Below, in pieces: positions 34,705-36,308 of a stretch of 64,000 nt of DNA; positions within the stretch are counted from its first letter, which is position 1; each line of letters begins with the position of its first letter. The stretch lies in the NCBI GenBank assembly GCA_018303405.1, contig JAGVYD010000015.1:1-64000 (forward strand). The letters are read 5' to 3'. The notes under the pieces are model-generated. The model was not told the origin of the DNA. It made no database searches and was given only the letters and a program-made list of their open reading frames with translations. The position numbers and the translations under genes are program-made. This DNA is from Candidatus Woesearchaeota archaeon. Its GTDB lineage: Archaea; Nanobdellota; Nanobdellia; Woesearchaeales; JABMPP01.

Positions 34705-34725
34705 ATGGCCCCGCCGTGATTTGAA
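34705..34725 (-). repeat. Duplicate of the tRNA-Ile 3' end
   Basis: 21 nt identical to 34837-34857 (T-loop to acceptor end of tRNA-Ile). The match stops inside the T-loop and twin-hairpin copy E1 begins at the next base. Confidence 0.85.
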
Positions 34726-34784
34726 GAGATTTTTAAGAAAAATCTCGTAAAAACAAAGGGAACATAAAGTTCCCCGACGCGATT
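34726..34784 (+). repeat. Twin-hairpin element E1
   Basis: Hairpin 1 is GAGATTTTT-AAG-AAAAATCTC (34726-34746), followed by an 11-nt A-rich linker. Hairpin 2 is GGGAAC-ATAAA-GTTCCC (34758-34774), then CGACGCGATT. Same plan as E2-E6 with different arm bases but conserved pairing. Confidence 0.8.
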
Positions 34785-34837
34785 TTTCTCAAAACATAAT
34801 AATCGCTATAATTGATATATATGTTAAAGAAGTATGA

Positions 34838-34932
34838 TGGCCCCGCCGTGATTTGAACACGGGACCTCACGATTTCTTCGCCTTTTGCAGGGCGTATCAG
34901 TCGTGCGCTCCACCAGACTAAGCTACGGGGCC
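34838..34932 (-). tRNA. tRNA-Ile (GAT) with a 21-nt intron
   Basis: Acceptor GGCCCCG/CGGGGCC, D-arm GCTT...GAGC, anticodon stem CACGA/TCGTG, T-arm CCGTG-TTCAAAT-CACGG. The anticodon loop is C-T-G-A-T-A followed by an intron (34874-34894, containing a CGCC/GGCG hairpin) at the canonical 37/38 site, then A38. CCA is not encoded. Confidence 0.93.
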
Positions 34933-34982
34933 AATGTATATCATGTTCTGGTTTACAGTCCTTCGCTTTCCGCAGGAAAGCT

Positions 34983-35034
34983 GTCCTTTCGGAGAAAGGA
35001 CGTTTTTGGGCTCAATCCTTTTTTTAAGGGATTG
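34983..35034 (-). repeat. Twin-hairpin element E6 (divergent)
   Basis: On the minus strand, hairpin 1 is at 35013-35034 (9 bp with one wobble) and hairpin 2 is GTCCTTT/AAAGGAC (34983-35001) with a 5-nt loop. An extra 7-bp hairpin (GCTTTCC/GGAAAGC, 34965-34981) follows. Confidence 0.65.
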
Positions 35035-35056
35035 CTACGGTTAAGCTATGGTGCCA
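35034..35056 (-). repeat. tRNA 5'-end fragment (acceptor arm plus D-arm)
   Basis: Read on the minus strand it begins GGCACCATAGCTTAACCGTAG, like the first 21 nt of a tRNA, then breaks off at the start of E6. No matching 3' part nearby. Confidence 0.55.
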
Positions 35057-35066
35057 ATGAATGCAA

Positions 35067-35139
35067 CGCCCCGGGCCAGGATCGAACTGGCGACCTCACG
35101 GTTAACAGCCGTGCGCTCTAACCGCTGAGCTACCGGGGC
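35067..35139 (-). tRNA. tRNA-Asn (GTT)
   Basis: Acceptor GCCCCGG/CCGGGGC with discriminator G, D-arm GCTC...GAGC, anticodon stem CACGG/CCGTG with loop CTGTTAA (anticodon GTT), T-arm GCCAG-TTCGATC-CTGGC. No intron. Hairpin 1 of element E2 overlaps its first two bases. Confidence 0.95.
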
Positions 35140-35195
35140 AATTTTTTAACAAAAAATTGCATAAAAAATTGAGGAACACAAGGTTCCTCGACGCG
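35138..35195 (+). repeat. Twin-hairpin element E2
   Basis: Hairpin 1 GCAATTTTTT-AAC-AAAAAATTGC (35138-35160), hairpin 2 GAGGAAC-ACAAG-GTTCCTC (35171-35189), then GACGCG. It starts exactly at the 5' end of tRNA-Asn. Confidence 0.8.
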
Positions 35196-35255
35196 TTTTA
35201 CATGCAATTCTGATAAACGCTATCGGACCTGTATACGACGCTTACTATCAAATCA

Positions 35256-35313
35256 CCGAGCGAATAGGGCTTTATGCCCTATCTGTTTCTATGCAATCTT
35301 TGTTAAAGATTGC
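35256..35313 (-). repeat. Twin-hairpin element E4 (inverted)
   Basis: On the minus strand, hairpin 1 is GCAATCTTT-AAC-AAAGATTGC (35293-35313), linker ATAGAAACAG, hairpin 2 ATAGGGC-ATAAA-GCCCTAT (35264-35282), then TCGCTCGG. Faces E2, with a ~60-nt centre between them. Confidence 0.8.
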
Positions 35314-35317
35314 CTGT

Positions 35318-35333
35318 CTGAGCTACCGGGGCA
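35318..35333 (-). repeat. Duplicate of the tRNA-Asn 5' end
   Basis: 16 nt identical to 35125-35140. With the adjoining bases it reads GCCCCGGTAGCTCAGACAGG on the minus strand, ending right after the D-loop GG, where E4 begins. E3 starts on the other side. Confidence 0.8.
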
Positions 35334-35390
35334 GATTTTTTAGCAAAAAATCTGGTAAAAAACAAGGGAGACATAAAGTCTCCCGACGCG
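35332..35390 (+). repeat. Twin-hairpin element E3
   Basis: Hairpin 1 CAGATTTTTT-AGC-AAAAAATCTG (35332-35354), linker GTAAAAAACAA, hairpin 2 GGGAGAC-ATAAA-GTCTCCC (35366-35384), then GACGCG. Confidence 0.8.
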
Positions 35391-35449
35391 ATTAAATGCC
35401 AATCATCAAATCTCTGCCGTGAATGTTTGCGACAATCATGTTCGAATCA

Positions 35450-35506
35450 CCGAGCGAATAGGGCTTTATGCCCTCACTGTGCCCACTTTTCTTTTTTAAA
35501 CACTAC
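35450..35506 (-). repeat. Twin-hairpin element E5 (inverted, partly decayed)
   Basis: Hairpin 2 AGGGC-ATAAA-GCCCT (35460-35474) and its flank are nearly identical to E4; the AT-rich hairpin 1 is degenerate. It is followed by CTGTCTGACCGAGGCAG, a shortened version of the tRNA 5' fragment next to E4. Confidence 0.65.
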
Positions 35507-35533
35507 CTGTCTGACCGAGGCAGAGGTGACACA

Positions 35534-35584: not shown

Positions 35585-36175
35585 TTAGACAAGGCTGGCA
35601 ATAATGCCTGAAATGCCCTTGGCCATCATCTCAATGGCAACAGCTGTCAGGAACAATCCAAGTATCCTGGAGCTAATGTCAATCAAAGTCGTGTTAATCT
35701 TGCTGATTGCAAAGCCAAACAGGATGAACAACAGCCCAACTATTATGAAAGCATAAGTTATGTTGAAAAAAAGGTGGGAAAACCCAAGCTCATAAGTCTT
35801 TATCGTGATGAAAGATATGGTTGCCGGGCCGGTCAGCATCGGGGTGGCAATGATAGAAATGGTGCTTTCGACACCAGTCACTTCCCTGTCCCCATTTTTC
35901 TGGGGCCTGATGGTGCTAAGGCCAAGCAGGAGCAGGACAATGCCGCCGGCAATACGGAATGCATCGAGGGATACGCCAAATACCTTGAAAAGCACAGGCC
36001 CGAACATCGCGATTATCAGCGCAACAACATATGCCGTGATGACTGCGCCAACAGCTATCTTGCGGACGTGCATTTTTCTCTTGAATGCAGACATCAAAAT
36101 CGGAAAGGAGGACAACGGATTCAACAATACAAAAATCTGAAGCACGAGCGCAGGATTGAGGAAAATGCTATCCAT
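35585..36175 (-). CDS. MarC-family integral membrane protein
   Basis: 196 residues, six membrane segments. Begins MDSIFLNPALVLQIFVLLNPLSSFPIL, the MarC N-terminal signature, with FRIAGGIVLLLLGL and TPMLTGPATISFITI in the middle. Transport role is uncertain despite the 'multiple antibiotic resistance' name. SD GGGAGG lies seven to ten nt before the ATG at 36175. Confidence 0.92.
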   Translation of the reverse strand: MDSIFLNPALVLQIFVLLNPLSSFPILMSAFKRKMHVRKIAVGAVITAYVVALIIAMFGPVLFKVFGVSLDAFRIAGGIVLLLLGLSTIRPQKNGDREVTGVESTISIIATPMLTGPATISFITIKTYELGFSHLFFNITYAFIIVGLLFILFGFAISKINTTLIDISSRILGLFLTAVAIEMMAKGISGIIASLV

Positions 36176-36308
36176 AAGATAACATCCCTCCCCTGTCCAA
36201 TATTTAAACTTATCCAACTGCAATACCAAACTAATTTATTTCATATAGAAAATCTTTATAAATTGCGCAGGCATCTTATCACTATTGTCATGCAGGACGG
36301 TGGATTTT

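Follow-up and report, generated by a model that had tools for sequence, protein, structure and literature searches.

Probable insertions of small twin-hairpin DNA elements in a tRNA gene cluster of a Candidatus Woesearchaeota archaeon

The genome of a Candidatus Woesearchaeota archaeon carries a real family of structured, mobile and non-autonomous DNA elements that prefer the ends of tRNA genes in this genome. The mobility of these twin-hairpin elements is well supported by target-site duplications and dispersal, in line with an earlier note on this DNA that had likened facing hairpin pairs to the inverted ends of a mini mobile element. In the window, i.e., the whole 64,000-nucleotide stretch of contig JAGVYD010000015.1 analysed here, one cluster very probably consists of a tRNA-Ile and a tRNA-Asn gene that were hit by four insertions of this small element (Table 1). 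The earlier note had counted six equal copies at this place (E1 to E6), which we instead resolve into the inverted ends of one element type and a second end type that together make up four insertions, one of them decayed. The family can be viewed as a small-DNA parasite present across an archaeal order, whose repeated insertion into RNA genes leaves fragments of tRNAs in place. For DPANN archaea, it offers a tangible origin of fragmented and duplicated tRNA genes and possibly of intron-bearing ones.

The core of the cluster is formed by two minus-strand tRNA genes. A known structured RNA family can be discarded for the hairpins, as only these two tRNAs reach the gathering score in an Rfam search of the window. 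The two genes, the duplications of tRNA ends and a third helix (GCGAT...ATCGC) were absent from the earlier note. Insertion 1, whose boundaries are set by its flanking duplication, comprises hairpin 1 (hp1; 34726-34746), an A-rich linker (34747-34757), hairpin 2 (hp2; 34758-34774) with an ATAAA loop, and the third helix (34779-34806); it matches R1, a covariance model built from ten copies of this genome, with 90.3 bits. Insertion 3 has a twin-hairpin end (35138-35189), a central helix and an inverted twin-hairpin end (35264-35313) and is matched by R1 on both strands (82.1 and 45.4 bits). The adjoining insertion 4 is a ~71% repeat of this unit, with hp1 at 35332-35354, hp2 at 35366-35384 and an inverted end in which a single hairpin survives (35460-35474) and the outer one has decayed. 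Insertion 2 (hp1 35013-35034, hp2 34982-35002, third stem 34965-34981) shares its end type with copies at two other loci, L022 and L024. Its flanks match at 16 of 18 positions, which none of 300 shuffles equalled, and a pattern search found no separate parent gene for the outer fragment, so we read it as a decayed duplication of the adjoining tRNA-Ile 5' end.

Table 1. Genes, duplicated gene ends and probable insertions of the cluster (positions in the window)
Feature	Positions	Strand	Remarks
tRNA-Ile 3' end fragment (T-loop to 3' end plus 1)	34705..34725	-	outer copy of 21-bp target-site duplication; identical to 34837-34857
Insertion 1 (= E1), 111 bp, at tRNA-Ile 3' end	34726..34836	+	
tRNA-Ile (GAT), intron-containing	34838..34932	-	ARAGORN and Rfam; target of insertions 1 and 2
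Intact tRNA-Ile 5' end (CATTGGCCCCGTAGCTTA)	34919..34936	-	inner copy, decayed duplication of insertion 2
Insertion 2 (= E6), 5' of tRNA-Ile	34937..35041	-	different end type
tRNA-Ile 5' end fragment (CATTGGCACCATAGCTTA)	35042..35059	-	outer copy, duplication of insertion 2
tRNA-Asn (GTT)	35067..35139	-	ARAGORN and Rfam; target of insertions 3 and 4
tRNA-Asn 5' end (-1 to +15)	35125..35140	-	inner copy of 16-bp target-site duplication of insertion 3; pairs with 35318-35333
Insertion 3 (= E2 + E4), 177 bp, at tRNA-Asn 5' end	35141..35317	+	
tRNA-Asn 5' end fragment	35318..35333	-	outer duplication copy of insertion 3; flank of insertion 4
Insertion 4 (= E3 + E5)	35334..35509 (end approximate)	+	older tandem unit
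Decayed third copy, tRNA-Asn 5' fragment (CTGACCGAGGCAG on +)	35510..35523	-	aligned by eye with 35318-35333

The plan that the earlier note had ascribed to all six copies (a first hairpin, an A-rich linker, a second hairpin mostly with an ATAAA loop, and a CGACGCG tail) is present in E1 (34726), E2 (35138), E3 (35332) and E4 (35313 to ~35264, minus strand). Compared with dinucleotide shuffles, single-strand folding of these copies gave z-scores of -6.4, -4.7, -5.5 and -4.7, respectively, with the lowest-energy fold of E2 pairing the first hairpin differently. E6 does have paired hairpins (z -4.8) but departs from the shared plan in its second stem (GTCCTTTCTCCGAAAGGAC) and its third stem and lacks both the ATAAA loop and the CGACGCG tail. 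The twin hairpin described for E5 does not hold up, since a single hairpin is left, the outer one is unpaired, and the fold is no better than shuffles (z -0.4). Misassembly was ruled out by the presence of copies on about ten contigs with different flanks. An ordinary gene for a MarC family membrane protein adjoins the cluster (35585-36181, minus strand), and the named relatives of one protein encoded nearby come from Woesearchaeota and Nanoarchaeota.

The element is a quasi-palindrome of hp1, an A-rich linker, hp2 and a short central helix that is usually followed by an inverted hp2, a T-rich linker and hp1, and it also occurs in shortened forms down to a single twin hairpin. Because one 73-bp insert between 25-bp repeats (locus L124) has nothing beyond two hairpins, we regard the twin hairpin as the minimal unit. 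The third helix follows it in E1 and most copies of this genome, the linker between hp1 and hp2 is most commonly 10 nt long, and the hp2 loop reads ATAAA in 51 of 104 matches. As the earlier note had remarked, hairpin arms differ between copies and their pairing is kept: ten copies of this genome showed 35 both-side vs 3 one-side changed cells, far more than by chance (0 of 500 shuffles reached the both-side figure), and over 92 distinct copies all 22 pairs covary, with 480 both-side vs 23 one-side changed cells and slid controls reaching at most 76. The 92-copy alignment was fitted to the structure, and the 10-copy MAFFT alignment agrees with it. Covariation in both sets strongly supports constraint on, or correction of, pairing, in keeping with the selection for structure that had been proposed.

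In hp1 and hp2, 1.0% of the pairs are G-U (1.3% after removal of redundancy) vs 4.4% in the acceptor and T stems of tRNAs at the same loci (Fisher p 0.001 for the non-redundant set). This low share supports a constraint at the level of DNA but falls short of proof because model-based hit lists may be biased towards Watson-Crick pairs. With its two-sided covariation and low G-U share, this family makes a test case for telling DNA-hairpin from RNA-structure constraint, which may be mistaken for each other when new RNAs are sought by covariation. In several copies the outermost hp1 pairs include the tRNA's own bases, e.g., in E2, where hp1 borrows bases 1 and 2 of tRNA-Asn, or in the Leu copies at L033 and L103, which use GCA, so that the opposite arm matches the target. 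The borrowed bases may point to either microhomology at insertion or later self-correction of the hairpin.

Evidence for mobility comes from target-site duplications. For every copy we sought the longest exact direct repeat that brackets it, and this repeat reaches at least 14 bp around 19 of 75 copies vs 5 of 400 random positions. Five of these 19 repeats are internal to tandem elements (E3 of the window, L024 twice, L025 and L027) and were set aside, leaving 14 copies with inserts of 73-193 bp between repeats of 14-38 bp. Each repeat consists of the target gene's end plus adjoining bases; it is this gene end that is duplicated, and the intact gene therefore usually survives. Judged by eye, insertions at 5' ends break the tRNA at ca. 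+12 to +17 in the D-loop (Asn +15, Ala +15, Pro +17, L021 +17, L124 +14, and L063 +12 with a 12-bp repeat), and those at 3' ends break it in or beside the T-arm (Ile of the window, L105, L121, L125, L120 and L098). Two targets are no tRNAs, again by eye: a gene with C and D box motifs that resembles a C/D-box sRNA gene (L102) and the start of a protein-coding frame (L110). About a dozen copies were inspected by eye for polarity. In clear cases hp1 borders the fragment copy at its gene-internal break and the opposite end of the element is joined outside of the gene; for the Asn and L021 elements the polarity is unassignable because hairpins are present at both ends.

Several loci deviate from this pattern or show further insertions. 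At L023 the fragment is present twice and an intact tRNA is missing from the stretch viewed, and at L141 the D-loop of a tRNA-Glu-like gene harbours the core without evident duplication, where the insert may be an intron. A tRNA-Ala-like gene between the 16S and 23S rRNA genes (L034 400-830, minus strand, contig C7) has a T-loop insertion resembling a non-canonical tRNA intron, and similar T-loop insertions occur in relatives at L123 and L141. Nested insertions are seen on contig C15 of this genome at ~70.3 kb (L030 700-1300), where the middle of a tRNA-Pro remnant is replaced by an element that itself contains another structured insert.

Copies are dispersed well beyond the cluster, with 24 matches in this genome by DNA search and 22 by R1. 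Most of them adjoin tRNA genes or fragments (Ile, Asn, Ser, Glu, Pro, Ala, Leu and others). At least 14 of the 22 copies, counted by eye, lie beside tRNAs in a zone that covers 0.7% of the genome as a rough upper bound (60 tRNA genes with margins), which is therefore not chance. In the search of relatives that the earlier note had proposed, R1 detected the element in 21 of the 288 genomes that represented the order, and a phylum-wide sample of 371 genomes gave nine positives, all in that same order. Viral carriage was rejected after a search of viral_contigs with two exact patterns gave no match, and a partial literature search did not come across any account of an element like this from DPANN archaea.

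In some relatives the core lies inside larger miniature elements (MITEs). In genome G040 it is found within an intergenic MITE of ~350 bp, and shorter copies of that MITE have a few bases instead of the core, a comparison of paralogous sites only. This MITE family has ~40 copies whose terminal repeats begin GTAAGTAAAAAGTC, some of which carry the twin-hairpin core (L091, L092 and L093). The core of G063 and one copy in G163 reside in MITEs with terminal repeats resembling GGCTCTGTCCTAAAT, and a second G163 copy has different ends. As these outer MITEs differ, the core is not tied to one outer element, and inside larger MITEs with other terminal repeats it may hitchhike.

For the element itself, we propose that a recombinase acting in trans would recognise the folded single strand, i.e., hp1, the linker and hp2 with its ATAAA loop. 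Within the target gene, the hp1 end would be joined at a favoured cut site, the opposite element end would be joined at a less fixed cut outside of the gene, and filling in the stagger would copy the gene end so that the target gene survives. The arms could stay complementary either if movement is confined to folded copies or through self-correction of hairpins during replication. We tentatively raise the possibility of a new class of archaeal mobile DNA that combines a hairpin pair as substrate, loops of structured RNA genes (the D- or T-loop of tRNAs) as target, an undescribed recombinase and long, variable staggered cuts.

Which enzyme could move the elements was addressed by gene content. 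None of the copies that we read encloses a transposase-like gene. The enzyme presence tables stem from draft genomes with threshold-dependent carrier status (G136 passes at 0.001 and fails at 0.0001) and are therefore only leads. An rve integrase as common mover was rejected, being missing in 9 of 13 carriers (found in 4 of 13 carriers vs 1 of 9 non-carriers; the match in G056 is below the cut-off), and Y1 transposases and reverse transcriptases were discarded as universal movers, each being missing from several carriers.

Loops of tRNA genes are classic integrase sites, and the elements could be miniature integrative elements moved by a tyrosine recombinase (an integrase or XerA-like), with the repeats as attachment cores and crossover in the tRNA loops. 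The corresponding domain, PF00589, is encoded by all 13 carriers tested but also by 8 of 9 non-carriers, and its distribution therefore neither excludes nor singles out this enzyme. An integrase gene starts ~90 bp downstream of an element-bearing tRNA-Ser on contig C20, but related elements are found in many different tRNAs as well as in an sRNA gene and at the start of a protein gene, and every repeat matches that insertion's own target, which disfavours one fixed attachment core and leaves this origin rather unlikely. The C20 gene encodes a tyrosine integrase of 407 aa (L182 1198-2421, minus strand), the 5' end of the tRNA-Ser carries twin-hairpin copies, and an integrated element is possibly present at the same tRNA.

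Mobilisation of single-stranded, REP-like hairpins by a Y1 transposase of the IS200/IS605 or REP-associated type strikes us as similarly doubtful. The hairpin ends would suit such an enzyme, the avoidance of G-U pairs fits DNA hairpins, and Y1 genes occur in 8 of 12 carriers vs 2 of 9 non-carriers. However, Y1 was not found in the other four carriers (G051, G055, G163 and G085; as the genomes are drafts, an enzyme may have been present in the past), and elements are absent near the Y1 genes of eight genomes. Y1 systems are not known to leave a target duplication, whereas duplications of 14-38 bp are seen here. At the hp2 foot, 19 of 104 aligned matches have GACG (CGTC on the opposite strand), which recalls CGTC-tagged REPs (PMC3733652), but this tag is not kept across the order.

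Alternatively, the hairpins could act as RNA, i.e., as signals for the processing or stability of tRNA precursors, which the earlier note had offered as a second reading, or as parts of tRNA introns, with tRNA fragments as by-products. Most copies of this genome touch tRNA ends, the core of L141 is located in a tRNA-Glu-like D-loop, and L123 and L034 have intron-like T-loop insertions. Yet copies occur in either orientation and at either gene end, and others are found where a protein gene starts, within a C/D-box-like sRNA gene or inside intergenic MITEs. G-U pairs are at about a quarter of the tRNA level. Moreover, the duplications leave an intact tRNA, and for the copies in the window splicing is therefore unnecessary. 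A role in tRNA processing is unlikely, and we consider the RNA-level explanation as a whole quite improbable.

Insertion of RNA copies through target-primed reverse transcription would account for a precise end on one side and a variable end on the other, and indeed duplication lengths vary and one end is joined at a preferred position. This genome also has two reverse-transcriptase genes. However, such genes were found in only 5 of 12 carriers (vs 2 of 9 non-carriers) and not in the other seven, including G055 and G085 that are 98-99% complete; the reverse transcriptase of this genome looks like that of a diversity-generating retroelement by eye and lies at contig ends, and pairing at the RNA level is little evident, all of which makes retrotransposition very unlikely. 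The two genes are found at the end of contig C2 and the start of contig C3 (L167 and L156), and the retroelement-like one is perhaps a repeated element at which the assembly broke. Casposons target tRNA genes and produce duplications of ~14-15 bp, but insertion by a Cas1 integrase is hardly credible given duplications as long as 38 bp and Cas1 in 0 of 21 genomes, this one included; a casposase is refuted for these genomes unless Cas1 is extrachromosomal.

Taken as a mobile twin-hairpin DNA element, the family can be compared to several known systems. The closest descriptions that we found are double-hairpin elements (DHEs) of fungal mitochondrial DNA, e.g., in Allomyces (Paquin et al. 2000, as cited in PMC5910586), and repetitive hairpin-forming elements of sponge mitochondrial DNA (PMC2800124), which may work alike by analogy. 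The archaeal element has the features by which DHEs are recognised, i.e., a close hairpin pair, kept structure, variable sequence and mobility, and it shares with them two adjacent hairpins, divergent copies, suggested mobility, a non-coding nature and an unnamed mover. Unlike DHEs, it is chromosomal, inserts into tRNA loops with 14-38 bp target duplications, keeps its linker and ATAAA loop conserved, and in many cases has a paired inverted end.

CGTC- or GTAG-tagged REP and BIME palindromes and Rickettsia palindromic elements form a further comparison set of short dispersed palindromes, among which CGTC REPs are without a dedicated transposase and often inverted dimers (PMC3733652). Short dispersed palindromes are common to REPs or BIMEs and the archaeal element, and GACG/CGTC at the foot of hp2 is shared with CGTC REPs mainly by the copies of this genome. 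Membership in the CGTC-tagged REPs was rejected with an unpaired CGTC at the stem foot in only 19 of 104 aligned matches, and the archaeal element differs from REPs in its targeting of tRNAs, in its long target duplications and in ends that have two hairpins where REPs have one. Like prokaryotic MITEs it is small, gene-less and dispersed with inverted ends, but the copies of this genome are devoid of long perfect terminal repeats, and their duplications at tRNA sites are longer and variable; a classical MITE was discarded as their ends are inverted but sequence-divergent and no cognate transposon was seen. Finally, a mobile element of 1.8 kb that is predicted to encode a recombinase was proposed to have inserted at one archaeal tRNA gene of Caldiarchaeum (PMC3293823). 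That insertion would likewise have left a tRNA 5' fragment and a complete gene behind, whereas the elements studied here are gene-less, 73-193 bp long and found at many tRNAs.
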